Assembly (NCBI GenBank): GCA_009773805.1
Contig: WTXA01000002.1
Location: 186,001-250,000 of the forward strand
Source of the DNA: Fusobacteriota bacterium
GTDB lineage: Bacteria; Bacillota; TC1
Length of the DNA: 64,000 bases
Reading direction: 5' to 3'
Position numbers and translations under genes: made by a program
The notes under the pieces: model-generated
What the model saw: only the letters and a program-made list of their open reading frames with translations
The model's database searches: none
Told to the model about the DNA's origin: nothing
In this document: in pieces, positions 10,673-39,804 of the stretch
How the letters are laid out: the number at the start of each line of letters is the position of its first letter
Numbering within the stretch: position 1 is the stretch's first letter

Positions 10673-11180
10673 TACTTACCCCTCTCCTGTAATAATACAG
10701 TTGTGAAAAGCCCTCAAAAATAGAACCTAAGCTAAATGACATAAACATGATATTTAACATAATAGCCGGTGCCATCTCTAAATACAAAGTAACCAACGCA
10801 ATAACAAAACCTAAGCCAACAACAACGAAGGCATTCCTCATAGCTTTTAAAGCAATTAGTTTATCCATCTCATCTTCAGTCTCTGCAATCTCAAATTCTT
10901 CGAATGTATTTTTCCCATTTTCTCCAGCTATTTTCTTTGAAACCTCTTTTGACACTTCATTAGCTATAGCAAGGATAATATGAAATATTATCTGAATGAA
11001 AATAATTAAGATAATACCCCCACCAATAGCAACTAACATTGCAGTCGCCCAAAATTTCAAATCACCAAGCAGGCTTTCACCCACCTCACTATATTTTGAG
11101 TATCCATACATAATGTATGCAACCAATACCAATACTCCTGAAAGAATTGAGGCAATTGTTTTTTTCTCTTGATAATACAT
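10665..11180 (-). CDS. Four-helix membrane protein of an XRE operon
   Basis: 171 aa with paired transmembrane helices (about 10-30 and 44-68, then 115-160) and an acidic cytoplasmic loop (FEEFEIAETEDEMDKLIALKAMRNA). The start MYYQEKK is preferred because AAGGAGTG lies nine bases upstream, whereas the further upstream ATG would overlap that ribosome site. It is first in a three-gene operon with an XRE regulator and a DUF6326-like protein. Function unknown. Confidence 0.65.
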   Translation of the reverse strand: MYYQEKKTIASILSGVLVLVAYIMYGYSKYSEVGESLLGDLKFWATAMLVAIGGGIILIIFIQIIFHIILAIANEVSKEVSKKIAGENGKNTFEEFEIAETEDEMDKLIALKAMRNAFVVVGLGFVIALVTLYLEMAPAIMLNIMFMSFSLGSIFEGFSQLYYYRRGVSNG

Positions 11181-21556: not shown

Positions 21557-23125
21557 TTAATTTGTATCCATATATTTTATTACCAAGTTACGACCTTTAT
21601 CTTTAGCTAAATATAAGGCTTTATCTGCCTCGTTTATTGTATCACTATTATCATAATTCTTTGAATCCAGGCATGATATACCCACACTAATGGTTACATT
21701 AACAGTTAGTCCTGAAGTATCAATTACGATAAGTTCTTTTTCAATTATCATCCTAATTCTCTCTGCAATATTAAAAGCCTTTTCTTCATCACAATGTGGC
21801 ATAAGAATTATGAATTCCTCACCACCAAAGCGGCCAACGTAATCATTATCTCTAGTATTATCCAATAGTAATTCAGATATTCTTTTTAAGACCTTATCTC
21901 CAGCTTCATGACCATATCGATCATTGATATTTTTAAAGTTATCAATATCAATCATAATAACCGATAAGAATGAACCTTCCATTATTGTGTGATTTTTTAG
22001 ATGAGAGAATATTTTCATTATTTGTCTTCTATTGTTAAGACCTGTCAAATAGTCTGTTTTTGATTCAACATCTAGTTTTACATTCAAGATTTCCAGATCC
22101 TTGTTTACTACTTTAATTTTTTCAAACAACTTGCCCATTCTGATAGAAAAATACATATCTCTAATAATCAATATAGTTATTATAATTAAAAACCCGACTG
22201 ATAATACATCAATAATCAAATACCTACTAAAAACATAGGCTCCAAATAAGATAAAAGCTACGTAAACAAATATTACAATGACATTCCTTATTGATTGTCT
22301 GACACCTGTAATGTCTACAAAATCTTTTTGATTTTCAGAAACTGTAATTTTTACTTCTGCTGATATTATCGCGATTATTGCAAGAAGCCAGGTCGCCATC
22401 GGCCATAAAGGATCAAGCCAGCTACCTGAGCTATAGTTGTTGTTTAATGTTTCGATAAAATACACTTGATTGGCAACTATGTTTATTATAATTGGTATAA
22501 ACATCAGTCTGAATATATTTAACACCTTTTTTTCTAAAGTACTCATAACCAGCATAGTTAAGATAATAAGCATCATTAAATCTGCTACTGGATAAATTAG
22601 AGATAAATATGATAATATTCCGCTATTACTATTTATTGTAAAGATAGGAATAATTATAAACTTCAATTCTAATATAATCATAATCAATAATCCAATTATT
22701 ATGTCTATGCTCTTAATTAATCTTCTTGGATTACCCTTTCGGAGGGCAAATTTATATATTGCAACAACAAATAATATTGTCTGAATAGAATATAAAATAT
22801 CTGCAATCAGTAGAAATGATTCCAAATTATTCATTACTTCACTCATAGTCCAGACAATATCTCCTAGAATATTAAAAAATATGCCAACTGCGAACAGTTC
22901 CCACATGCTTTTTAAGCTTTTTAATGTGTGTCTGGAGATGGCATATATGATAATTAGCAGACTTATTACTAACCCAAGGATTCCGATGATATTAATAAAT
23001 ATCACGAATTCTTGATTATCTAAAACATTTAGCACAGTATAATAAATAATCATATACAGAATTAATGATACTGTAGCATATATGAGTGTTTTATTTTCTT
23101 TTATTTTTTCCTGATTAATAATCAT
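21557..23125 (-). CDS. Membrane diguanylate cyclase
   Basis: 522 aa. About ten transmembrane helices (residues 15-330) precede a GGDEF domain (about 355-520). The active site RFGGEEF is intact and an inhibitory RxxD site (RDND) lies five residues before it, so it should make c-di-GMP with feedback control. The N-terminal sensor region is of unknown specificity. It is next to a GGDEF-EAL gene and a tandem HD-GYP gene, all on the same strand. Confidence 0.9.
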   Translation of the reverse strand: MIINQEKIKENKTLIYATVSLILYMIIYYTVLNVLDNQEFVIFINIIGILGLVISLLIIIYAISRHTLKSLKSMWELFAVGIFFNILGDIVWTMSEVMNNLESFLLIADILYSIQTILFVVAIYKFALRKGNPRRLIKSIDIIIGLLIMIILELKFIIIPIFTINSNSGILSYLSLIYPVADLMMLIILTMLVMSTLEKKVLNIFRLMFIPIIINIVANQVYFIETLNNNYSSGSWLDPLWPMATWLLAIIAIISAEVKITVSENQKDFVDITGVRQSIRNVIVIFVYVAFILFGAYVFSRYLIIDVLSVGFLIIITILIIRDMYFSIRMGKLFEKIKVVNKDLEILNVKLDVESKTDYLTGLNNRRQIMKIFSHLKNHTIMEGSFLSVIMIDIDNFKNINDRYGHEAGDKVLKRISELLLDNTRDNDYVGRFGGEEFIILMPHCDEEKAFNIAERIRMIIEKELIVIDTSGLTVNVTISVGISCLDSKNYDNSDTINEADKALYLAKDKGRNLVIKYMDTN

Positions 23126-23167
23126 TTCTCTCCTAACATTCTATTTAATGATGAATTGCTAAATAGT

Positions 23168-25693
23168 TTACTCAAGTAATTTTGTCACATCAGCAGCAGA
23201 CATTGGTCTTGCAAAATAATAACCTTGGATGCTGTTACAACCCATCTTCTTCAGCATTTCTTTTTGCATCAGTGTTTCTACCCCTTCAGCCACTACCTGA
23301 AGATTTAAATTATGTGCAAGTTCAATAATACTCTTGATCACCTGAGTCTCTCGAATATTTTCATAAGCTTTGTCGACAAAAGTTTTATCAATTTTCAAGG
23401 TATCAATTGGCATAACAGTCAAATAATTTAGTGAAGAATACCCAGTACCAAAATCATCAAGTGCTAACTTAAGTCCAAGAGATTTTAAATCCCTCAGCCC
23501 TTTCAAACTATCATAGGAAGTATTAAATAAAACACTTTCTGTAATTTCAAGTTCGAGATACTCTGCTGGAAATTGTGTCTTTGCTAAAATACCTTTCACA
23601 CCTTCATAAAACTCAGCACCATTAAGTTGATGTGAAGAGATATTCACAGAAAGTTTTCCAAATTGATAGCCTGCATCTAACCACAATTTTCCTTGTATAC
23701 ATGCATTTTCTAATATCCAATTACCTAATCGTACTATCAGTCCTGTATTTTCAGCAACTTGTATAAACTCTAGTGGTGATATTACTCCTAATACATCATC
23801 ACTCAATCTTGCCAATGCCTCAATACCAGTTATTTTTTCATCTACTAAACTTTGTTGCAACTGATAATGAATCACCAGCTTATCATTTATAATCGCTTCA
23901 CGAATACATGTCTCAATTTTAGAATTTCGTAATAACTCTGCGTGCATCTTATCATCAAAGAAACAATACTGATTTTTTCCACTTTCTTTCGCTTTATTTA
24001 GCGCCAAGTCTACAGTTCTCATATATTCACTTACAGAATTATTCTTTTCTAGACTACACACAACACCTATACTTACTGTAATATATACAGATTTATTATT
24101 AAGTTTAAATGGCATTTTAAAGACATCGATAATTTTTCTACAAATCTCTTCAACCTCATTTTTAATGTTAGTATCCCTTAAAAGAATTAAAAACTCGTCA
24201 CCACCAAATCGAGCAGTCAAATGCTCCTTTCCAACAATAGCTGAAATATTCTCACCAATTTCCTTAAGCAATTGATCACAAAATTCAACCCCAAGAGTGT
24301 CGTTATATCGCTTAAAATTATCAAGATCAAGCATCAAAATTGAGCACTTATTATATTCATAATCCGGTTGCTCAAGTTCAGTTTTAAGTAATTTCATAAA
24401 AAGTTCTTTATTAGCTAATTCAGTTAAGGAATCATAGTATGCCATATATTCCATTTTGGTTTCTTTTTGTTTGCGTTCATCTATATTGGTTATAGAACCT
24501 GCCATTAAAGTAGCGTTTCCTTCACTATCTTTATAGACTTTCCCCCTGTTTTGAACCCAGCTGTAATTTCCAGTTGAGCCCATGATACGATAAACACTGT
24601 CAAATGTAAGTTTTTCACCACTCAAGCATTCTTCAATCGCCAGCAATGCCTGATCATAATCTTCTGGATGAATTGCTTCTTTATTTAAAATAACATCAAT
24701 GCCATGACCACTTTTTTTGTTTCCATTAATTTCAGCCCATTTATCGGAGGTGAAAATATCATTAGTAGTAATATTCCATTCCCATAATGCATCATTTGCA
24801 CTATCTAGTGCAAGAGAATAACTATTTTTAACCTTTTCAAGTTCTTTTTTTAAACTGGTGAGCTTTTGTATGTTTTGATCCTTTTTAAACAGTCTTATTT
24901 GCATCATCACTAATAAGCCAAAAACCAAAAGGAATAAAATAGAGGCTCCCAGAACAAAGTCTATAGTCGAGGTTGATATGTTTTTATTCATTGAGACATG
25001 GATTGACCATATGTTATCTAGGATCGAGATATCCTTAATATAGACGTATCCCTCTTGTTGTTCTTCTTCACCCCAAAATAGGGCCCCTTTATCATCATGG
25101 AAGCTAATATTGTAGTCTTTTGTTGTTTCAGTATCTATGATATCATTTAAAAATTTGTCTATACTCATTACCACTACAAAGAAACCATTGAATTCTTCTT
25201 CATAATAGAGCGGGTATCTGATAACAAGACCTAAGAGACCATTTGTGTCTTTGAGTACAAATGGTGAATTTGCAGTAATTCTTTTTTCTTTAATCGCTTT
25301 AAGAACAGCTTCTTCAACTTCTGGTCTGCCTATTAATGTTGCACCTAGAGTATAGTTAAAGGTATCAGGGTATACCATAATTGTAGTAGTTTCTTTATCT
25401 TTGCGTTGTATATAGATAATGTCAGAATTTACTTTTAGATAGTGCTCAGCTAAAGTTCTGAATTTGGATTCATCTAAATTGGGGTCAATTTCATAATTGT
25501 AAGCGAAGGAGGCTAATATACCTTCCTTGATATTTACATCTTCCTGAATATTGTATGCCAAAGTTTCCCCTACATTGTTGACTTTTTTTTGTAGTTGTTC
25601 AGTGTCATATTTTACAAAAAAGTATATCGATGATAAAAAGATAAAAAGTGTGAACATTAACTGCAACGCTATTATTTTAAAATGTTTGGACAT
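23168..25693 (-). CDS. Bifunctional-type sensor: extracellular domain, PAS, GGDEF and EAL
   Basis: 841 aa. An N-terminal helix, an extracytoplasmic CACHE/CHASE-like sensor (about 35-235) and a second helix (~245) are followed by PAS (about 285-410), GGDEF (about 415-575; RFGGDEF intact, no RxxD) and EAL (about 590-840). The EAL catalytic residues look complete: GIEALARL, SVNISS, LELEITES, DDFGTGYSS, LKIDKTFV and VAEGVET. Phosphodiesterase activity is likely; cyclase activity is possible. The ligand is unknown. AAAGGAG precedes the ATG. Confidence 0.9.
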   Translation of the reverse strand: MSKHFKIIALQLMFTLFIFLSSIYFFVKYDTEQLQKKVNNVGETLAYNIQEDVNIKEGILASFAYNYEIDPNLDESKFRTLAEHYLKVNSDIIYIQRKDKETTTIMVYPDTFNYTLGATLIGRPEVEEAVLKAIKEKRITANSPFVLKDTNGLLGLVIRYPLYYEEEFNGFFVVVMSIDKFLNDIIDTETTKDYNISFHDDKGALFWGEEEQQEGYVYIKDISILDNIWSIHVSMNKNISTSTIDFVLGASILFLLVFGLLVMMQIRLFKKDQNIQKLTSLKKELEKVKNSYSLALDSANDALWEWNITTNDIFTSDKWAEINGNKKSGHGIDVILNKEAIHPEDYDQALLAIEECLSGEKLTFDSVYRIMGSTGNYSWVQNRGKVYKDSEGNATLMAGSITNIDERKQKETKMEYMAYYDSLTELANKELFMKLLKTELEQPDYEYNKCSILMLDLDNFKRYNDTLGVEFCDQLLKEIGENISAIVGKEHLTARFGGDEFLILLRDTNIKNEVEEICRKIIDVFKMPFKLNNKSVYITVSIGVVCSLEKNNSVSEYMRTVDLALNKAKESGKNQYCFFDDKMHAELLRNSKIETCIREAIINDKLVIHYQLQQSLVDEKITGIEALARLSDDVLGVISPLEFIQVAENTGLIVRLGNWILENACIQGKLWLDAGYQFGKLSVNISSHQLNGAEFYEGVKGILAKTQFPAEYLELEITESVLFNTSYDSLKGLRDLKSLGLKLALDDFGTGYSSLNYLTVMPIDTLKIDKTFVDKAYENIRETQVIKSIIELAHNLNLQVVAEGVETLMQKEMLKKMGCNSIQGYYFARPMSAADVTKLLE

Positions 25694-25928
25694 GTTTCAC
25701 ACTCCTTTTCCTAAATTTCTGATAGAAAATCTTGTTATTACTTTCTAGTAACATATTCTTCATCTAAATTAATTAGCTGAGATATTTTAACAGATATCTC
25801 CTCAACCCTATGAAAATGAAAATCTCTTGAATACTATTCAACTTCTTTTGGAAATATACAAATACCAATCTAATTCGACTACTAACGGTTTCCAGCTATA
25901 TGGTAAGCTTACTTGTGCCTTAAGTATA

Positions 25929-27164
25929 CTATACTTCATTTATAGCATTATTTTCAAATAAATTAGAGTAAACATAAATCACATCCCTTACTATATCAAC
26001 ATCCAATTCACCAGCTAATGCCATGCTTTTAAGCACTTGACTAGCTTCAAATTGAGACATTGCTTTTCTATACGGCCTATCCTCACTTAATGCTTGATAA
26101 ATATCCATACATGTAATAAGCCTCGAGTTGAAGTCGAGTTCATCGGCCATTAAACCTTCAGGATACCCTGAACCATTCAACTTTTCATGATGGTTAGAAA
26201 TTAATTTTACAATTTCTTCGAAGCCACTTATATTTTGAAGACATTGCTTGGCTATATTTGGATGCTCCTTAATTTTATCGAATTCTAACTTTGACAATTT
26301 ATCAGGCTTTTCTAATATATTGTTGCTAATTGCTAGTTTACCAATATCATGCAGGTCTGCTGCAATTAAGAGCTTCAAAGTCATAGTTTCATCTATTTTA
26401 TAAAATTTTGCCATCTTTTCAAGTTTTTCCGAAAGACCTTCAGAATGTATCTGAGTAAACCTTGATTTTGAATCAATTATTTTTGCGAAGGTAGTTGTTA
26501 TGGTTCTAATTTCATTATAGTTTAACTCACATTCAAAAAGCGGAATTGTTTCTCTGAGACTATATTCTATGTTTTCATCAGTTAGGCCCTCCCAGAATTG
26601 ATTGTTTTCAGATATCTTAGAAAACACATCAACTATTAAAGCTGAAAAATATTTTCCTTTATTATCCTGCACAAATTCTATGATATTATCTTTATTATTT
26701 ATGTTTTTTAAGTCAAAGGTCAGATCTAATAAATCTGCGAAGGATATAATCTGCGCAAGAAGAGGAATCTCATCCTTCAACAGACCAAAGAATCCAGAAC
26801 CATCATATCTTTCATGATGATATTTTATTATGTTTTTAGGTTTTGTTATAAATGGAAATTCTTTTATATTATTCTCGCCAATTAAACAGTGTTCTTTTCT
26901 GCTTTCCATCATATCAATTTTTTCTTTTAAATCCCCTTTTAAATTTTCATGCAATATTTTCATACTGGCACCATTATCATGCATTAATGATAATGAAGCC
27001 AAATCAAATCTTGCTTCTTTAGATAAGCCCATTTCAACGGCTATCTTTTCCGATATATATGAAATCCTCTTTGAATGATTAGTAGAAAGATCAAATATAT
27101 CAAGTTCAATAATATCTAGTATGTTTGCAACACCTATTAAAAATTCATTTAAGTTGAATTTCAT
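25929..27164 (-). CDS. Tandem HD / HD-GYP phosphodiesterase-like protein
   Basis: 411 aa cytoplasmic protein with two HD-type domains. The first (about 20-190) has LSLMHDNG and HHERYDGSGFFG and is somewhat degenerate. The second (about 215-400) has the full pattern AADLHDIGKLAI, ...KEHP..., SNHHEKLNGSGYPEG and RLITCMDIYQALSEDRPYR. The family hydrolyses c-di-GMP. No sensor or receiver domain is attached. It stands after the c-di-GMP riboswitch and the decayed cyclase gene. Confidence 0.85.
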   Translation of the reverse strand: MKFNLNEFLIGVANILDIIELDIFDLSTNHSKRISYISEKIAVEMGLSKEARFDLASLSLMHDNGASMKILHENLKGDLKEKIDMMESRKEHCLIGENNIKEFPFITKPKNIIKYHHERYDGSGFFGLLKDEIPLLAQIISFADLLDLTFDLKNINNKDNIIEFVQDNKGKYFSALIVDVFSKISENNQFWEGLTDENIEYSLRETIPLFECELNYNEIRTITTTFAKIIDSKSRFTQIHSEGLSEKLEKMAKFYKIDETMTLKLLIAADLHDIGKLAISNNILEKPDKLSKLEFDKIKEHPNIAKQCLQNISGFEEIVKLISNHHEKLNGSGYPEGLMADELDFNSRLITCMDIYQALSEDRPYRKAMSQFEASQVLKSMALAGELDVDIVRDVIYVYSNLFENNAINEV

Positions 27165-28441: not shown

Positions 28442-29899
28442 TCATTTTTTTAATTTTATTATTTCTTTCGAAATATACCAAGCTGTGATCATAGCTGTTG
28501 GAACCCCACCTGGATTATGAACATAGTGGCCAACAGAATAAAAATTCTTGATAGGTATATCCTTAGCAAAATCAAAGTGTGGTGCATAATTCGGGTCCCA
28601 ATTCCACCCTGCCGTACTACCACGCCAGTTGGAAGTATAACGTTCGTAAGTCAAAGGTGAAGCAGCCTCTTGCACTTCTATATGAACTCGTAGACCTGGA
28701 ATAAATTCTTCCCCACGTTTTATCAAATCCTCTATATATGCTGCTTTCTGTATTGCATATGCTTGTGGCATGCCTTTTGTAGTCTCCCAGTCCTCATATG
28801 GACTGAGCAACCCTATAAACAAGGCATGTTTTCCATCTGGGGCAGCTGTTTTATCATCCTTGCTTAACAAGACAAGTTGAATATATTTTTCATCTGCACA
28901 GGTGAAAACCACATGACTACCCTGAAACCGTTTTAAAGCAACAGTAAGTTCTGGACTATCCTTCAAACCTAGGAAAACTGAAAATATTGATTCCGAAGGA
29001 CGGGTTTTATTCAGTTTTCTTATTGTTGATGAGGGAATATGTTTCCTTTCAATCAACTCGAAACAAGTTTGGTTAAGATCCGACGCAGATACGACCCAAT
29101 TAGCTGCGATAAACTCAGCATCTTGGACCTCTACTCCAGTTACCTGACCGTGGTCTACCTTGATTTTTTTAATACGATTACCAAAATGAACCTGGCCACC
29201 CTTCTCATTTATATAACGGACTAACTCATCAGAAATACTTTGCATCCCCCCAATAGGTACCCATGAATCATAATAGTAAGATGCCCACATTCCAAGTGTG
29301 TTCTTACCCGCCATTACTGGATACCCAAGTTGGTTTAACAACTGCTTCAAATATGGGTTCTTAAAATATTGAGCATGCAAACTTCGGTTTGTATTTTTAT
29401 TTGCTTTCCAAGAAGCCCAAGGAAATAAGGGATGATGATACACCACCCGTAAAATTGCCCTAAATACATTATGCCCAAACATCATGCCACTTTTCAGTAA
29501 GTCATTAAAGGCAGAACCACCAACTCCCACCCAGTTGAAATATCTCTTTAAAGATCTATTTTCGTTGGGAAAACAGTTTGCAATATCTTGATAAGACTGG
29601 CGTGGGGTTTCTAATGGAATATCGTGGTTTTCCCAACTGATTTGATGTCCTGCACGAATATAGCTTTCTTTGTTATATAGACCGAGTTCATCTAAAATAG
29701 GAAATATAACACCATTTGATCCAAAACATGTTGGACCCGCAGGGAATGTATACCCCTTGCGTTTAAAGGAAGAAACATACCCACCTGGCACAACATGTTG
29801 CTCAAAGACTTGAACAGGAATCCCTGCTTTAGCTAGGTAGGCCGCCGTAGTCAATCCTGCCAAACCTCCACCTATGATGATTACATTTTTATCAATCAT
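28442..29899 (-). CDS. CrtI/RetSat-like FAD-dependent oxidoreductase
   Basis: 485 aa. The N-terminal dinucleotide fold is IIIGGGLAGLTTAAYLAKAG followed by VFEQHVVPGGYVSSFKRKGY. The C-terminal FAD segment is NFYSVGHYVHNPGGVPTAMI. This is the phytoene desaturase / carotenoid isomerase / retinol saturase superfamily, acting on polyene lipids. Its start overlaps the upstream flavodoxin-like gene by eight bases, so the two are co-translated. A heliorhodopsin gene lies 1.8 kb away, so a role in making or altering a retinoid is possible; this is inference. Confidence 0.8.
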   Translation of the reverse strand: MIDKNVIIIGGGLAGLTTAAYLAKAGIPVQVFEQHVVPGGYVSSFKRKGYTFPAGPTCFGSNGVIFPILDELGLYNKESYIRAGHQISWENHDIPLETPRQSYQDIANCFPNENRSLKRYFNWVGVGGSAFNDLLKSGMMFGHNVFRAILRVVYHHPLFPWASWKANKNTNRSLHAQYFKNPYLKQLLNQLGYPVMAGKNTLGMWASYYYDSWVPIGGMQSISDELVRYINEKGGQVHFGNRIKKIKVDHGQVTGVEVQDAEFIAANWVVSASDLNQTCFELIERKHIPSSTIRKLNKTRPSESIFSVFLGLKDSPELTVALKRFQGSHVVFTCADEKYIQLVLLSKDDKTAAPDGKHALFIGLLSPYEDWETTKGMPQAYAIQKAAYIEDLIKRGEEFIPGLRVHIEVQEAASPLTYERYTSNWRGSTAGWNWDPNYAPHFDFAKDIPIKNFYSVGHYVHNPGGVPTAMITAWYISKEIIKLKK

Positions 29900-30464
29900 A
29901 AAAAATCACCTCTTTATTATAGTTGTCTTTGATTATCCCATTTCTGATTTCATTAACTATGGGGATAATATATTTTTTATCTGTGAAGTCAATTGGTCGA
30001 GAGTATGAGCTTAACATACCTTTTTCATCAGGAGTAAGGTTCTTTTTTGTTTCTAATTTTAATTTCAATAAAAACATAGCAAATTTATCCATGATATTGA
30101 GACAATTAAAATTAAAGCCACCTCTTAGCATGAAGAATTTTATACTTTCTTGTTGCTCCTTACTGAAATTACTGTTTATTACTTCTTCCTTAATACCCTC
30201 ATGCAGTGGAGTAGCACCTAGGAAAAAGACAATAAGCTTCTTGTCTTTCATTTCTTCTATTTTCTTTAAAAATAATTTAAGTCCATTTATACCTTTTGCA
30301 TATAATGCTCCACCATAAACTATTGTTTCATATTTTATTAAATCATTGATTCTAACTTTGCTGGCCTCTATTAAATCTGAATCTATTTCTTCTGCAATCC
30401 ATTCAGCATATTTTTTAGTAAAACCCGTTTTTGAGCAATAAACTACTATAACTTTCTTAGACAT
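29892..30464 (-). CDS. Flavodoxin-domain protein
   Basis: 190 aa. N-terminal FMN phosphate loop VVYCSKTGFTKKYAEWIAEEI (residues ~7-27) and YETIVYGGALYAKGING (~45-61) fit a flavodoxin-like fold of the HemG type. The C-terminal 70 residues are an extension seen in some clostridial flavodoxin-domain proteins. It overlaps the CrtI-like gene and probably donates or accepts electrons for it, which is inference. Confidence 0.78.
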   Translation of the reverse strand: MSKKVIVVYCSKTGFTKKYAEWIAEEIDSDLIEASKVRINDLIKYETIVYGGALYAKGINGLKLFLKKIEEMKDKKLIVFFLGATPLHEGIKEEVINSNFSKEQQESIKFFMLRGGFNFNCLNIMDKFAMFLLKLKLETKKNLTPDEKGMLSSYSRPIDFTDKKYIIPIVNEIRNGIIKDNYNKEVIFYD

Positions 30465-30657: not shown

Positions 30658-31113
30658 TTATTTTTCATTTTTTTTTGCTACTTGTTCGCAAAAACTATAT
30701 AATCTATCAAGGTCCATAGAATTGGGTCTTCCTTTTGAAATACCCCCTATCCACTTAAATAGCCCATAGGTATCAAATCCTTTACAAGTAAACTCACCTA
30801 TTATCTTGGCATTTTTTAAAAGTAGCTTATCATTTAATAAGATGTTGTTTTTTTTATTGCCTGTTCCACTTGTTGAAAAAATAATGACTTTCTTATCCTT
30901 GAAATTTGTCCTGTCAACAAAATCGAATATTTCCACGTGATGTTTTCCATGATAAATTCCTGAGCCAAGACAGATAGTGTCATATTTTTCTAATTCAATT
31001 GTTGGTAAGTCCTTGATGGGTAATATATCTGCATTCAACCATAAAGCCATGTTTTCTGCTATTTTTTTTGTGTTGCCATTATGTTCAGATATGTACATAA
31101 TTAAACTTTTCAT
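30658..31113 (-). CDS. Flavodoxin family protein
   Basis: 151 aa. The phosphate-binding loop is MYISEHNGNTKKIAENMALWL, followed by YDTICLGSGIYHGKHHVEIFDFVDR (~48-70) and IIFSTSGTGNKKNN. The length and motifs fit a flavodoxin electron carrier. AAGGAGAGATT precedes the ATG. It lies 190 bases upstream of the other flavodoxin gene on the same strand. Confidence 0.82.
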   Translation of the reverse strand: MKSLIMYISEHNGNTKKIAENMALWLNADILPIKDLPTIELEKYDTICLGSGIYHGKHHVEIFDFVDRTNFKDKKVIIFSTSGTGNKKNNILLNDKLLLKNAKIIGEFTCKGFDTYGLFKWIGGISKGRPNSMDLDRLYSFCEQVAKKNEK

Positions 31114-31362: not shown

Positions 31363-31644
31363 TTATTGTATTAGTCTTTCTATGAGTATACTTATGAAAA
31401 TACCTAACAAAGCTATTGATCCTACAAGATAAATTGAACGTATTTGTTTTCTGCCTAATACTGAGGTTTTGCTTTTTAGCAATTTAATAGCATAGTAGAG
31501 TATTAAAATATCCATTAATCCAATTATAAACAAATAACTTTCCCCGAATATATTGAAAAAAACCGGCAAGATACTTATTATAACTACTAGAATAAATATT
31601 GCAAAGGAAATAAAAAGTGCTTTGCTTTTGCCATTCAAGGTCAA
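31363..31644 (-). pseudogene. Probable 3' remnant of a UbiA-like prenyltransferase
   Basis: 93 aa with three transmembrane helices (FISFAIFILVVIISILPVFF ... YLFIIGLMDILILYYAIKLL ... LVGSIALLGIFISILI). The pattern recalls the last helices of archaeal-type UbiA prenyltransferases. There is no ribosome site; the frame opens with TTG inside sequence that matches the tRNA-Leu-flanking repeat (CTGAGATGCCCTACTGGT at 31652). The N-terminal two thirds with the DxxxD motifs are missing. It could also be an unrelated small membrane protein. Confidence 0.4.
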
Positions 31645-31680
31645 ACTCTGAGATGCCCTACTGGTAACGAAAAAGAAAAA

Positions 31681-31708
31681 AGCACCTTTGCCTTATGCAA
31701 AGGTGCTT
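31681..31708 (-). terminator. Terminator of the heliorhodopsin gene
   Basis: AGCACCTTTGC/GCAAAGGTGCT, an 11-bp stem followed on the minus strand by TTTTTTC. Confidence 0.9.
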
Positions 31709-31738
31709 CATTTATCAAATCATTTATTAATCCATAAT

Positions 31739-32518
31739 TTATGGTTGCATAGCTCCAAAAAGTACTAACCAAGCTAAAAGTGATTTAGCTACTAGGCTTA
31801 ATACTATATAGGTTCTTTCACCATAAATATAGTCTTTCCATTTACCAATTCTTTTGTATTGTAGTATCATATTGATTGGGAAAGTATTAAAGGCCACAAA
31901 GTAGGTTCCTACTATTGCCCATACGAACCAAGGTACCATGTCGAAATTTCCTGTTCCGAACATATATAGGAAGATAGCAATCCAAGGAGCTATTCCAGCA
32001 AATGAGCCCCAAACAAATGGTCCCCAGTTTACTTTGTTTTTTTCTGCTCCAGAATTTAGTTGTTCCATAACCAGGCCAAATAGGTTCATGGATGCATTGA
32101 CTATGAATATTAGGATCAAAGATGCTATATCATAGATTCCAAATAGAGTGCTGATAAGGACTATCATTATTGATGATGATAGTGCATATTCGAACCATCT
32201 GAATTTATTTATTCCCTTACTAAGGTCACTTAGGTATTTTTCAGTATTTAGATAGATTATCCCGTGTGCCAAGGCTGAGATCAATAGGAAAGAAGCAACA
32301 AGTATTCCAAATGGTAGCTGAAATAATTCCCTACTGGATGTTTCTAGTGTTTGGGTTTCAGGAATAAATTCTAGGAAAAACTGAGTAATTGTTGGTTGAA
32401 ATTCAGCTATTTTCTGAATCACAGTAGTTGCTAGAAATAGCATGGCTACACCTTGTATTAGGTGGAAAAAGCCCATGATCAGGTTGAAATTCTTTAGTTT
32501 TTTTAGTTTCTCATCCAT
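31739..32518 (-). CDS. Heliorhodopsin
   Basis: 259 aa with seven transmembrane helices. The retinal-binding lysine is in helix 7 (LSLVAKSLLAW, Lys245) and the conserved counterion glutamate is in helix 3 (FRWFEYALSSS, Glu110). Two intramembrane histidines are kept (GFFHLIQG, His19; ALAHGII, His85), as is NLFG in helix 4. This pattern is specific to heliorhodopsins rather than type-1 rhodopsins, whose helix-3 motif differs. Heliorhodopsins sit inverted in the membrane and do not pump; their role is thought to be sensory or regulatory. A promoter-like TTGCCA-17-TAGTAT lies in the shared upstream region, and AAGGAG precedes the ATG. Confidence 0.92.
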   Translation of the reverse strand: MDEKLKKLKNFNLIMGFFHLIQGVAMLFLATTVIQKIAEFQPTITQFFLEFIPETQTLETSSRELFQLPFGILVASFLLISALAHGIIYLNTEKYLSDLSKGINKFRWFEYALSSSIMIVLISTLFGIYDIASLILIFIVNASMNLFGLVMEQLNSGAEKNKVNWGPFVWGSFAGIAPWIAIFLYMFGTGNFDMVPWFVWAIVGTYFVAFNTFPINMILQYKRIGKWKDYIYGERTYIVLSLVAKSLLAWLVLFGAMQP

Positions 32519-32673
32519 TTTTGTTCTCCTTATTTTTTTGTATCTTATTTATTTCATACTATCATTTTATAAAGCATGTGGCAAGAGAACTGATAAAACC
32601 TTTGTATGCTTACTGTTATGCATATGTTATTATATTTTTATACCATGCAAATATATTGTAAGGAGACTATACT

Positions 32674-33243
32674 ATGAAAGTACTTACTACCCTCTCGAAA
32701 TGGTTTACTAAAAAAACGACGCTACTTGTCTTTATAGTTGCAACTTTGATCTTTACCGGCTTTATAATCTGGGTGCTGCCTGGAGTTTCAGCTAATACAA
32801 AGGAGATTACTGGTTCAAGTCTGTCTCCAGATACATCTTTTTTCTATACGGTCGAAAAGCTGTATCAGATTGCTGAGGTATATGGCGAAACAGGTCGTCA
32901 GTATTATATTAATAGTCGTTTTACCTTTGATGTGGTTTGGCCCATTGTTTATGGTTTTTTCTTAGTATCTGCCTTGTCCTTAACTTTTAAAAAGCCTATA
33001 GCTGGTAAGTCTTTCTACGTTTTTAATTTACTTCCGCTTTTTGGCATCGGTTTTGATTTTTCAGAAAATATTACTGTAGCATATGTGATGTTCAGATATC
33101 CCCAGACTACTTTTGTTGCCTATTTAGCACCTTATTTCACATTAATAAAATGGTTATTCATTTACTTGGCCTTTGGCTTTTTGATTATAGGTGTTATTAT
33201 CAAGGTCTTCCAGATAGTTCAGAGGAGGGTATTAAGGCGATAA
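32674..33243 (+). CDS. Conserved membrane protein divergent from heliorhodopsin
   Basis: 189 aa with four hydrophobic segments (about 17-37, 88-108, 112-135, 150-178) and a periplasmic-side loop containing SPDTSFFYTVEKLYQIAEVYGETGRQYYI. I recognise the pattern from uncharacterised Firmicute membrane proteins but no function is known to me. AAGGAGAC precedes the ATG. It shares a 155-base promoter region with heliorhodopsin, so the two may be co-regulated. Confidence 0.65.
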   Translation: MKVLTTLSKWFTKKTTLLVFIVATLIFTGFIIWVLPGVSANTKEITGSSLSPDTSFFYTVEKLYQIAEVYGETGRQYYINSRFTFDVVWPIVYGFFLVSALSLTFKKPIAGKSFYVFNLLPLFGIGFDFSENITVAYVMFRYPQTTFVAYLAPYFTLIKWLFIYLAFGFLIIGVIIKVFQIVQRRVLRR

Positions 33244-34385: not shown

Positions 34386-35351
34386 CTATCGCAGAGCCTT
34401 ATCATAAGGTATACCTTCTGCTTTTGGTGCTCTTGATTTTCTAGAAGTAAATGCAAGAACAACCATCGTTGCAATATAAGGTAACATTTTATAGTAGGTT
34501 TGATTAATCCCTAAATTATCGAGGAAAGGAATTAGTACTACAGAGTAAGCAAGAGTGCGTAGAAATGCAAAAAACAATGCTGCAAGAAGTATTCTTATTG
34601 GTTTCCATTGGCCAAAAATCATAACAGCTAAAGCTAAGAAACCAAAACCAGCAACACCAGTATGACCGTTCACATTACCATCCAAAACACCTACGGAGTA
34701 AAAAAATCCTCCAATACCACCTAAAATACCAGAGATACTAACTCCTGCATATCTCATGAAATATACATTAATCCCCACAGAATCAGCCGCCTGAGGATGT
34801 TCACCACATGCTCGTAGACGTAACCCAAATCTAGTTTTATAGAAAACAATTACTGAAATAACAAGAAAAAATAAACCTAAAACTACAGTCAAATAAGTTT
34901 TTTGAAAAAACATTTCACCAATAAAAGGAATATCTCCTAAAACTGGAACCTTTCTGATATAAAAATTCATATTTGTTGTAATACCATCACTATTAAAAAA
35001 CATTTTTGAAAATAATAAAATTGCTGCAGGTATTAACATATTTAAAGAAACACCAGTAATAGTTTGATTTGCTTTCATCGTAACGGCTGCAAAAGAAAGA
35101 AGTAATGAATAAATCAAACCAGAGAAACCTGCAACTACCATTCCAATTAGTATAATAACTTGAGGATCAATTTGTGATTTTTGTATAAAAAAAACAAAGA
35201 GTGCACCAAAGAATGCTCCAAACAACATAATACCTTCAAGAGCAATATTGACAATACCGCTTCTTTCACTAAACATACCACCCAAGGCAACTAATAATAA
35301 AGGAATTGCTACAGGAAGCATATTCTGAATTAAATAATAAACTGTACTCAT
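34386..35351 (-). CDS. BMP-type ABC transporter permease 2
   Basis: 321 aa membrane subunit with family patterns LGGMFSERSGIVNIALEGIMLFG (residues ~24-46), FGLRLRACGEHPQAADSVG and GFGFLALAVMIFGQWKPIR. Its ATG overlaps the preceding TAA by one base (TAATG). It completes importer 3. Confidence 0.88.
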   Translation of the reverse strand: MSTVYYLIQNMLPVAIPLLLVALGGMFSERSGIVNIALEGIMLFGAFFGALFVFFIQKSQIDPQVIILIGMVVAGFSGLIYSLLLSFAAVTMKANQTITGVSLNMLIPAAILLFSKMFFNSDGITTNMNFYIRKVPVLGDIPFIGEMFFQKTYLTVVLGLFFLVISVIVFYKTRFGLRLRACGEHPQAADSVGINVYFMRYAGVSISGILGGIGGFFYSVGVLDGNVNGHTGVAGFGFLALAVMIFGQWKPIRILLAALFFAFLRTLAYSVVLIPFLDNLGINQTYYKMLPYIATMVVLAFTSRKSRAPKAEGIPYDKALR

Positions 35352-36541
35352 TATTCTGCCTCCTTATTCTGGACTTCTATTTCCTCTTCTACAGCCTCTA
35401 AATCTTCAAGTAATATATTAGTGTGTGGTTTTTTGATAATATATTTTTTAATAAATCTTCCAATCCCAGAATTCATAATCATTGCAAAGGCTGAGAAATA
35501 AATGATTACAGCAATAACCACATCAATAATTTCCGGTTTATAGCCTACTAAATTGGCTAATGTACCTCCACGTTGAATAAATGAAATAAAAGTTGCAGAA
35601 AAAATGATACCAATAGGATTTGCACTACCTAAAAGAGCCACTGCAATACCATTAAATCCGTTGACTGCAATAATATTTATAGGTTCATAAGTCATGCTAC
35701 TTCCTGCTATTGCTGAAGGGGCTAATATAGCAAAAGCACCACCTAAACCTGCTAAACCTCCGGCAATGACCATAGTAAGAATTATATTAGTCTTACCTTT
35801 CATACCTGCATAATTGCTTGCATGTTTGTTAAAGCCTGTCGCTTTAAGTTCATAGCCGAAAGTTGTTTTCTCTAAAACAATAAATAATATAATTCCAATA
35901 ATAACTGCCATTATTATACCAACATTTACATTTGAGCCCATTATACCTAAGGAAGGAAGTTGAACTGTTCTTGGCAAGTAGTTTGTTCTAGCATTTGATG
36001 ATAAATATAATACTAAGTTACCTTGTATTAACATATCCACCAAATACATTCCAATATAATTAAACATAATCGTAGTTATTACTTCATTAACATTAAGGAA
36101 TGCCTTGAAAATACCAGGGATAAATCCCCAAAGCATACCACCAACCATACCCGCAATGATTGCAGCAATCCAGTGTATTTCTGGAGGCAAATCCCACATG
36201 AAACCAACATAAAGTGCAAAAAACATTCCCATGGTATATTGACCAGATGCACCAATATTGAAAAGGCCCATTCTAAAGGCCAACCCCACTGATAAACCTG
36301 TCATTAAGATTGGTGTTGCAAAATATAGCACATCACCAAAACGCCCAAAACCACCAAGTAGTATATAACTAAATCCTTTAAAAACATTTTGTGGCCCCGC
36401 AAAAGCCATGACAATAAATCCAAAAATTAGACCTAAAAAAATTGCCAATAGCACAGAGGTAAATGCAGTGAACCCCTTACTTTCTGTTATATTTTTTAAA
36501 GTTATACCCTTATTTCGAGATGAACTTTTCTTACTCTGCAT
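35351..36541 (-). CDS. BMP-type ABC transporter permease 1
   Basis: 396 aa from the ATG at 36541 (MQSKKSSSRNKG), seven bases after AAGGAG; an in-frame TTG lies two codons earlier. Family patterns: LSVGLAFRMGLFNIGASGQYTMG, LNVNEVITTIMFNYIGMYLV and GFNGIAVALLGSANPIGI. It overlaps the end of the ATPase gene. The basic N-terminal and acidic C-terminal tails are longer than in the other two systems. Confidence 0.88.
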   Translation of the reverse strand: MQSKKSSSRNKGITLKNITESKGFTAFTSVLLAIFLGLIFGFIVMAFAGPQNVFKGFSYILLGGFGRFGDVLYFATPILMTGLSVGLAFRMGLFNIGASGQYTMGMFFALYVGFMWDLPPEIHWIAAIIAGMVGGMLWGFIPGIFKAFLNVNEVITTIMFNYIGMYLVDMLIQGNLVLYLSSNARTNYLPRTVQLPSLGIMGSNVNVGIIMAVIIGIILFIVLEKTTFGYELKATGFNKHASNYAGMKGKTNIILTMVIAGGLAGLGGAFAILAPSAIAGSSMTYEPINIIAVNGFNGIAVALLGSANPIGIIFSATFISFIQRGGTLANLVGYKPEIIDVVIAVIIYFSAFAMIMNSGIGRFIKKYIIKKPHTNILLEDLEAVEEEIEVQNKEAE

Positions 36542-38078
36542 TGTCAATCTCCTTTACAGTGTTTCGTTTAGCACCTGACATATATAGTCCAAGTTCTTGA
36601 ACTGTGGTTTTTTTAGGGTCAAGCTCTCCTACAATTTCTCCTTCATACATAACTAATATACGATCACTAACATTCATAACTTCATCTAGTTCAAGGGATA
36701 CTAATAAGACACCTTTTCCACAATCACGTCTGCTGATAAGTTGTTTATGAATATACTCTACAGCACCCACATCAAGACCTCTTGTTGGTTGAACTGCAAC
36801 TAAAACTTCATGATCTTTATCAATTTCCCTTGCAATAATTGCCTTCTGTTGATTTCCTCCTGACATACTTCTAGCCATTGTTATAGGTCCTTGGCCACTT
36901 CTTACGTCATATTTTTTTATGAGGCATTCAGCATAGTTTCTAACAGCATGAAATCTTATAAAGCCTTTATTTTGAAATTCAGGTTGCCAGTAGCGTTGTA
37001 AAACCAAGTTTTCTTCTAAAGAATAATCTAGTATTAATCCATGTTTATGTCTGTCCTCAGGAATATGACTCATTCCAGATACTGAACGTTTCCTTATTGA
37101 TGATTTAGTAATGTCTTTACCACCTAAGATAATTGTTCCAGAACTAACTTTTTCAAGACCTGTTAGCGCAGATATAAATTCTGTCTGTCCATTACCATCA
37201 ATACCTGCCAGACAAACAATTTCACCACCTCTTACATCAAAAGAGATATTTTTCACTGCATTATTTTTATGTAATTTTGAAGGTACTGTTACATTTTTAA
37301 CAGATAATACAACTTCTTTAACTTCAGTTAACTTTTTTTCAATGTTGAAACTAATGTCACGTCCCACCATCATTCGAGAAAGTTCTTCTTTTGTAGTGTC
37401 TTTAATATCTACAGTTCCAATATATTTTCCTTTACGGAGTACAGTACATCTATCGGCAACTTCAATTATTTCGTTTAATTTATGGGTAATAAATAATACT
37501 GATTTTCCTTCTTGAGCCAAATCTCTCATTATTTTTAGTAATTCTTTAATTTCTTGTGGTGTTAAAACTGCAGTAGGTTCATCAAAAATCAATATTTCAT
37601 TTTCTCTATAAAGCATTTTTAGAATTTCTGCTCTTTGTTGCATACCAATAGATATTTCTTCAATAAGTGCATCTGGATTAATTTTTAATCCATATTTTCC
37701 ACTTAGTTCCATAACTTTTTTTCTTGCGTCTGTTTTTTGTAGAAAGCCTAAGGTATTAGGTTCAACCCCAAGTATGATATTTTCTAGGACAGTAAATATT
37801 TCTACAAGTTTGAAATGCTGATGAACCATTCCTATTCCAAGATCATTGGCATCATTAGGGTTATTAATTTTCACTTCTTTTCCATTTTTTTTAATTTCGC
37901 CTTTTTCTGCTTGATATAATCCAAAAAGAACACTCACAAGTGTGCTTTTACCAGCACCATTCTCACCAAGAAGAGCATGTACTTCCCCTTTTTTTAAGTT
38001 CAAGGTGATATTATCATTAGCAATAATACCAGGAAATTCTTTTGTTATATTTAGCATCTCTACAATATAATTTTCCAC
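36531..38078 (-). CDS. BMP-type ABC transporter ATP-binding protein (two NBDs)
   Basis: 515 aa. NBD1: Walker A GENGAGKSTLV, signature ISIGMQQRAEI, Walker B ILIFDEPTA. NBD2: degenerate Walker A GIDGNGQTE, signature MSGGNQQK and QPTRGLDVGA. It apparently starts at GTG after AGAGG. The gene follows the lipoprotein gene after a hairpin, as in the other two BMP operons. Confidence 0.9.
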   Translation of the reverse strand: MENYIVEMLNITKEFPGIIANDNITLNLKKGEVHALLGENGAGKSTLVSVLFGLYQAEKGEIKKNGKEVKINNPNDANDLGIGMVHQHFKLVEIFTVLENIILGVEPNTLGFLQKTDARKKVMELSGKYGLKINPDALIEEISIGMQQRAEILKMLYRENEILIFDEPTAVLTPQEIKELLKIMRDLAQEGKSVLFITHKLNEIIEVADRCTVLRKGKYIGTVDIKDTTKEELSRMMVGRDISFNIEKKLTEVKEVVLSVKNVTVPSKLHKNNAVKNISFDVRGGEIVCLAGIDGNGQTEFISALTGLEKVSSGTIILGGKDITKSSIRKRSVSGMSHIPEDRHKHGLILDYSLEENLVLQRYWQPEFQNKGFIRFHAVRNYAECLIKKYDVRSGQGPITMARSMSGGNQQKAIIAREIDKDHEVLVAVQPTRGLDVGAVEYIHKQLISRRDCGKGVLLVSLELDEVMNVSDRILVMYEGEIVGELDPKKTTVQELGLYMSGAKRNTVKEIDNAE

Positions 38079-38130
38079 ATTAACCTCTTCTTCCTACTTT
38101 TTATAAAAATCTTAAATTTAAATTTAAAAA

Positions 38131-38156
38131 ATGGAGGAAACTCGCGCCTCCTCCAT
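38131..38156 (-). terminator. Intercistronic hairpin between BMP and ATPase genes
   Basis: ATGGAGGA ... TCCTCCAT (8 bp) in the 148-base gap. The minus-strand flank is TTTTTTAAATTT, so it may act as a partial terminator. It is the third such hairpin at this position in the window's BMP operons. Confidence 0.65.
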
Positions 38157-38226
38157 TTATAGTCTTATATCTACATAAGGCTTAGTCTATTATATTATGT
38201 TATGTTATGTTATCTAAATTTTATTA

Positions 38227-39363
38227 CTATCTTGTAGAAACTGTTACTTTCATTAATCCTAATGCAGAAGTAAGCTCAGCTACTGTAGCAACTCCACTTG
38301 AACCAGCTACTGTAATTTTACGTAGTGGTTTAACACTTCCATCAGCTAAAGTAGCAAATACTTTATCATATGCTGCTTTATTAAAAGTTGAGAATCTATC
38401 AAAAGCATCTGCTTTATCATCTCCAATAACCATTGTTGGTAGACCAACACCATCATTGGAGGCATTAAAGAATGTTGTTTTTGCTGAGTATGTTGCCCAT
38501 TTGTCATTATAGATTGCTTCTAGCACACTGATAACAGATGCTGAAAGTCCTTTTGTTGCTGAGGTTATAACTGTATCGCTATCATATCTTTGGTCAACGT
38601 CTACTCCGATAACTAATGCATCAGATTCAGAAGCTGCAGACATGACGCTCTTTCCTACAGAACCACCGCAAGCAAATATTACTTGAGTGCCTTGCTGGTA
38701 CATAGTTCTTGCAGTTGCTTTGTTTGTATCGCTTTCATCAAAGTTTCCAGTGTAGTGATATGTCACCTTAATTGAACCATCTGCAAGATTAAGGCTTTTA
38801 GCAGCTGCTTCAGCACCTTGAAGATATCCATAACCAAAAGCTTGAACAGCAGGAACTGCCATTCCACCCATGAAACCTAGTTGAGTCATACCATCTGTTA
38901 CTGCTGCATAACCAGCAAGATAACCTGATTGTTCTTCAGCATACATAACGCTTGCTACATTAGATTTTGTTTCAAATTTTGCATAATCAGCTGTATGTGG
39001 TGCTCCATCAAGTAAGATGAATTTAACATCAGGATATTTTGTTTGCGCTTCATATATCGGTACTTCAAAAAGGAAACCTGGTGTTACAATAATTTTTGCT
39101 CCACCTGTAACTGCTAAATCAATAGCAGCTAAATATCCTGCATCTGAAGCTTCTTCAGGCTTGATGTACTTATGCGAAATATTATTGTCTTTTGCATACT
39201 TAACTACGCCTTCCCAAGCTCCTTGGTTAAATGATTTATCATCAATGTTACCTTTGTCTGTGATTAGTGTAATTTCATTTGTATCAGAAGCATTTTGACC
39301 ACATCCTACTAATACCATACCCACTACCATGATTGCTAGTAAACCTAATAATTTTTTTTTCAT
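38227..39363 (-). CDS. BMP family ABC transporter substrate-binding lipoprotein
   Basis: 378 aa from MKKKLLGLLA, preceded by AGAGGAGGG; the longer frame upstream covers that ribosome site. Lipobox LVGC (Cys21). Mature segments EITLITDKGNIDDKSFNQGAWEG and QQGTQVIFACGGSVGKSVMSAA are of the Med/TmpC nucleoside-binding type (DDKSFNQ is typical). It is longer than the other two BMP proteins here and likely binds nucleosides, with purine nucleosides probable by homology. First gene of operon 3. Confidence 0.9.
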   Translation of the reverse strand: MKKKLLGLLAIMVVGMVLVGCGQNASDTNEITLITDKGNIDDKSFNQGAWEGVVKYAKDNNISHKYIKPEEASDAGYLAAIDLAVTGGAKIIVTPGFLFEVPIYEAQTKYPDVKFILLDGAPHTADYAKFETKSNVASVMYAEEQSGYLAGYAAVTDGMTQLGFMGGMAVPAVQAFGYGYLQGAEAAAKSLNLADGSIKVTYHYTGNFDESDTNKATARTMYQQGTQVIFACGGSVGKSVMSAASESDALVIGVDVDQRYDSDTVITSATKGLSASVISVLEAIYNDKWATYSAKTTFFNASNDGVGLPTMVIGDDKADAFDRFSTFNKAAYDKVFATLADGSVKPLRKITVAGSSGVATVAELTSALGLMKVTVSTR

Positions 39364-39804
39364 TTTATACCCTCCTCTTTGGAATTTATGCAGCATATCT
39401 CTTTGATTGAATTATATCCTTTACAATTTCTAAATACAACAATTTCCACTTAATATCTCCATTTCTCTTATTTTTGTCCATAAATTCTAATATGAAAAAA
39501 TATATTTAGATCAGTATAAATATAAAGGAATGCCTTTCTCTATTTCTATGGATGGCTTATCACTTCATTCTAGGGCTTTCATGAAGATGTGCAGGGATTT
39601 TTTTAGGATCTCTACCTTGTTCTTTTCTTCCAATAGCAGTCTTTCCTTAATCCTAAGTTCTTTTTCCAGTTCTTTAACTTTATGAATTAGTTAATTGTTG
39701 CTTTTTGGTTCTGGTCTTTTTAGACCTTTTTCAACGCATAGAAGGTTTGCTATTTATCCTTTGATATTGTATATTAATTACAAAGAAATTTTTGGAGGTA
39801 AAAT
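39364..39804. other. Intergenic region with an IS3-type remnant
   Basis: Upstream region of BMP operon 3. No purine riboswitch pattern is visible. The middle contains a decayed transposase OrfA end; the right end is the promoter and ribosome site of the SPFH gene. Confidence 0.6.
39565..39750 (-). pseudogene. Remnant of IS3/IS150-family OrfA
   Basis: The minus strand reads KGLKRPEPKSNN, a stop, then LIHKVKELEKELRIKERLLL followed by EEKNKVEILKKSLHIFMKALE and stop. The leucine-zipper-like end with EILKKSLHIF is typical of the end of IS3-family OrfA. The HTH part, OrfB and terminal repeats are absent. Confidence 0.6.

Follow-up and report, generated by a model that had tools for sequence, protein, structure and literature searches.

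What is known of characterized heliorhodopsins (HeRs) points to slow, non-pumping light sensors that work through protein contact. A 64,000-nucleotide stretch of contig WTXA01000002.1 (the window; assembly GCA_009773805.1, Fusobacteriota bacterium, placed by GTDB in Bacillota, TC1) had been predicted to carry such a gene in a probable anaerobe. We asked what an HeR would do in this host and where its retinal would come from. For anaerobes, both the role of HeRs and the source of their chromophore are standing questions.

The original prediction had listed the HeR gene under the span from 31739 to 33243. The HeR was confirmed, and the span proved to hold two genes: the HeR gene itself (31739-32518, minus strand; 259 amino acids, ATG start) and, 155 bp away, a divergent gene for a 189-amino-acid membrane protein (32674-33243, plus strand) without a Pfam or NCBIfam family. 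The HeR open reading frame (ORF) matched the Pfam Heliorhodopsin family PF18761 over the whole profile (318 bits; E value, 3.7e-95) and the NCBIfam equivalog NF038020, "heliorhodopsin HeR" (289.6 bits; cutoff, 100), and a search of the PDB by sequence returned no relatives other than solved HeRs. An AlphaFold model (pLDDT, 91) showed the 7-TM fold with the β-structured loop between helices A and B. The closest PDB structures found with Foldseek were HeRs (TM scores of 0.84 to 0.88), and the model superposed on 6is6, 6su3, and 6uh3, the paired strands of the A-B loop included.

The key residues named in the prediction (Lys245, Glu110, His19, and His85) were all located at their expected positions, as were Ser81 and Tyr111. 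The SxxxK motif of helix 7 is present as S241-LVA-K245, and Glu110 occupies the Glu counterion position of helix 3; from general knowledge of 48C12 and TaHeR, we take Lys245 to be the Schiff-base lysine and Glu110 to be the counterion. Across 84 aligned HeRs, Lys245, Glu110, His85, Ser81, and Tyr111 were invariant, and His19 was present in 83, the remaining row having a gap. Comparison of the window genome with a congener, G005, gave a dN/dS of 0.035 for HeR. The ORF is thus a genuine, intact HeR that has been kept under strong purifying selection since its transfer (see below). By homology, its topology would be inverted, with a cytoplasmic N terminus, and we infer that it binds retinal and has a sensory role.

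This HeR is an ordinary member of its family. It shares its fold, pocket, and β-structured loop with TaHeR of Thermoplasmatales (6is6 and 7u55) and with 48C12 HeR (6su3 and 6uh3), to which it is about 42% identical, although TaHeR comes from an archaeon and 48C12 HeR from an actinobacterium. TfHeR of Trichococcus flocculiformis is of the same HeR type, 76% identical, and also from a Gram-positive host, but it lies in an operon with a photolyase gene, whereas the window HeR stands alone (PMC9769723). HeRs in anaerobic Bacillota have already been published: those of strictly anaerobic monoderm Firmicutes were surveyed and proposed to be light sensors (Bulzu et al. 2021, PMC8612252). The window HeR is like these in its kind of host and in its proposed role but differs in having no MORN or zinc-ribbon fusion and no histidine kinase gene among the neighbors examined.

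The prediction also had HeR sharing its promoter region with a conserved membrane protein, the divergent gene. We found that HeR has its own predicted sigma-70-type promoter, TTGCCA-17-TAGTAT preceded by TG (32556-32584, minus strand; consensus match). A predicted intrinsic terminator with a 13-pair stem and a T-run follows directly behind the gene (31679-31709, minus strand; fold z, −4.5). A counterpart of the promoter sequence was found upstream of the G005 HeR, which is also followed by a hairpin of similar sequence. Blastn aligned promoter, HeR, and terminator with the G005 locus as one unit (31678-32589, minus strand) at 87% nucleotide identity, and the flanks of this unit had no similarity to that locus. 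Just behind the terminator lies a stretch (31363-31644, minus strand) that matches residues 194 to 277 of the UbiA-type prenyltransferase profile NF009523; its score against PF01040 is 18 bits, below the cutoff, and the upstream frame contains stops. It is probably a fragment of a UbiA-type gene, the C-terminal third, which seems to have been cut off where it borders the HeR unit. HeR is, then, a stand-alone unit with its own predicted promoter and terminator. The majority of HeR genes in a published survey likewise stand alone, 38.6% sharing an operon with neighbors (PMC11109279). The region upstream of the G005 HeR (locus L086, about 10840 to 10940) holds a degenerate tandem copy of its own promoter and first codons (66 nucleotides, 89%).

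We looked across 10 genomes of the order and found HeR only in the window's genus, in four of five genomes; the HeR-negative fifth is 79% complete. The flanking genes differ among all four HeR-bearing genomes, giving four contexts. The HeRs of the window genome and G005 are 90% identical in nucleotides and 96% identical in amino acids, whereas the syntenic photolyase, thioesterase, HTH, and 79-amino-acid genes of the same two genomes are only 68 to 79% identical in nucleotides. The HeR of a third member, G003, is 56% identical to that of the window. In an HeR tree, the four genus sequences were not joined: the branch leading to G003 was very long, and G004 fell apart from the window/G005 pair at a node without resolution. 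The 80 best-matching HeR loci outside the order were mostly Bacillota, Mycoplasmatota, and Chloroflexota records. A mobilizable Lactococcus petauri plasmid of 10.5 kb carries an HeR (57% identical; L104 5592-6368, NZ_CP141705.1) beside an IS6 transposase gene, so such genes do move on mobile DNA. A search of phages found no HeR, and we looked for an empty site for the HeR cassette and found none.

Similarity confined to 31678-32589, together with an HeR far closer than four other shared genes, indicates that HeR was acquired by recent horizontal transfer as a single-gene unit. The four contexts, the tree, the UbiA-type fragment at the border, and the Lactococcus plasmid precedent, taken together, point the same way. 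HeR spreads as a stand-alone gene between sediment bacteria.

We propose that this HeR is an inverted 7-TM opsin that would carry all-trans retinal on Lys245 and respond slowly to green light, in the role of a sensor or regulator rather than an ion pump. Following its horizontal acquisition, the single-gene unit would be expressed from its own predicted promoter, and the host would most likely take up retinal from light-exposed neighbors or detritus. HeR probably works in trans on a cytoplasmic partner, for which the class II CPD photolyase would be the best candidate. Taken as a whole, a functional, horizontally acquired light sensor with scavenged retinal and a partner in trans is the account that on balance we consider probable.

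A narrower version of this account would have HeR specifically help the class II CPD photolyase and so extend DNA repair to green light. It draws on TfHeR, which is reported to bind a class II photolyase and to increase repair by a factor of about 3 (PMC9769723). Class II photolyases are missed by PF03441, and we therefore searched for them with TIGR00591. A class II photolyase gene was present, in a conserved setting, in the window genome and the other three HeR-bearing members of the genus. Among 54 HeR-bearing genomes, 32 had a class II photolyase and 7 more had another photolyase class (39 with any), and a photolyase gene lay inside the HeR locus in 18 of the 80 loci examined. However, of the two residues that TfHeR needs to bind photolyase, R162 corresponds to Ala158 in the window HeR and K227 is conservatively changed to Arg223; E97 is deleted. 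The window genome's photolyase gene (C2:812939) lies about 595 kb from HeR (C2:217748) on the same contig and is not in the same operon, and 15 of the 54 HeR-bearing genomes had no photolyase match. With R162 lost, E97 missing, the genes unlinked, and 15 carriers without a photolyase, the enzyme is the best single candidate for the output and no more than that; by analogy with TfHeR, specific help to photolyase may occur here, but we think it unlikely.

The original prediction had further asked how a probable anaerobe without visible carotenoid genes would obtain retinal. The window genome (98.5% complete) had no COX1 match, which makes an anaerobic host likelier. It also had no match to phytoene synthase (PSY), to an RPE65-type cleavage oxygenase, or to Blh (PF15461), the last a search without a positive control. 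Positive controls gave matches for PSY, RPE65, and COX1. PF15461 stayed below its cutoff throughout the 54 carriers, 398 phylum genomes, and controls, and its absence is the weaker result because no control matched it. In the 54 HeR-bearing genomes, many of them draft or metagenome assemblies, PSY exceeded its cutoff in 11, and RPE65 and, again without a positive control, Blh in none. The host thus has no known route to retinal, and the predicted gap in supply was borne out. What did not hold in full was the absence of carotenoid genes: although PSY is missing, a CrtI/CrtD-like FAD oxidoreductase gene lies 1.8 kb from HeR (28442-29899, minus strand; 136 bits against a CrtI family cutoff of 238). 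It overlaps a flavodoxin-domain gene (the pair spanning 28442-30464, minus strand), and a second flavodoxin gene lies at 30658-31113. Since the genome lacks PSY, the CrtI-like gene cannot mean carotenoid synthesis from scratch, and the other HeR loci held a single distant relative (22%); a role for it in retinal supply was not supported.

Scavenging from light-exposed neighbors or detritus is the most likely source of retinal. The puzzle is real and already known in print: rhodopsin-bearing Firmicutes that have neither blh nor diox1 have been noted (PMC7734400), and Saccharibacteria, rhodopsin hosts without retinal genes, may use the retinal of others (PMC9296517). It is also testable: a self-contained mobile unit, purifying selection, and the lack of a detected retinal route make scavenging directly open to experiment, and several of the carriers are in culture (Trichococcus, Proteiniclasticum, and Anaerobium). 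More broadly, anaerobes across the lineage might select strongly for a functional retinal protein, yet have no known retinal synthesis in any member. We regard this generalization as somewhat doubtful; if true, an anaerobe lineage would need retinal from oxic neighbors or undiscovered anaerobic synthesis.

Two other readings dispense with scavenging. The opsin might work without retinal, as an apoprotein or with another ligand, which would suit a gene that is conserved despite the search results above. We consider this improbable, since an invariant Schiff-base lysine, counterion, and pocket would not be expected of an apoprotein. Alternatively, the host might synthesize retinal by an unknown, possibly oxygen-independent pathway. 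The absence of PSY, Blh, and RPE65 matches would fit this too, the CrtI-like gene lies nearby, and Aurantimicrobium minutum, which has neither blh nor diox1, is able to make retinal (PMC7734400). But A. minutum has carotenoid genes and an oxygenase has been proposed for its retinal (PMC7734400), whereas the window genome lacks PSY and the CrtI-like gene has just the one distant relative near another HeR, so that we hold a pathway of the host's own to be quite improbable.

A signaling partnership with the divergent 189-amino-acid protein, favored by the common 155-bp intergenic region and by one Anaerolineaceae genome (L022) in which a homologue (42%) lies 2.4 kb away from HeR, is very improbable and largely refuted, because the gene is absent from G005 in spite of its 96% identical HeR, does not share a contig with HeR in G003, and has no homologue near HeR in the other 79 loci, some of them short. 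It is not a conserved neighbor, and the suggested survey of HeR loci elsewhere found it in L022 alone; a search of plasmids for its homologues found none. The upstream nucleoside-type ABC transporter genes (34386-39396), considered as an HeR target after PMC11109279, were ruled out because two genes intervene, HeR has its own promoter, and the HeR loci of the genus do not show the transporter as a recurring neighbor. On the minus strand 4.6 kb from HeR, we also noted a possible cyclic-di-GMP cluster (21557-27164) of three adjacent genes, for GGDEF, EAL-GGDEF-PAS-CHASE, and HD proteins.
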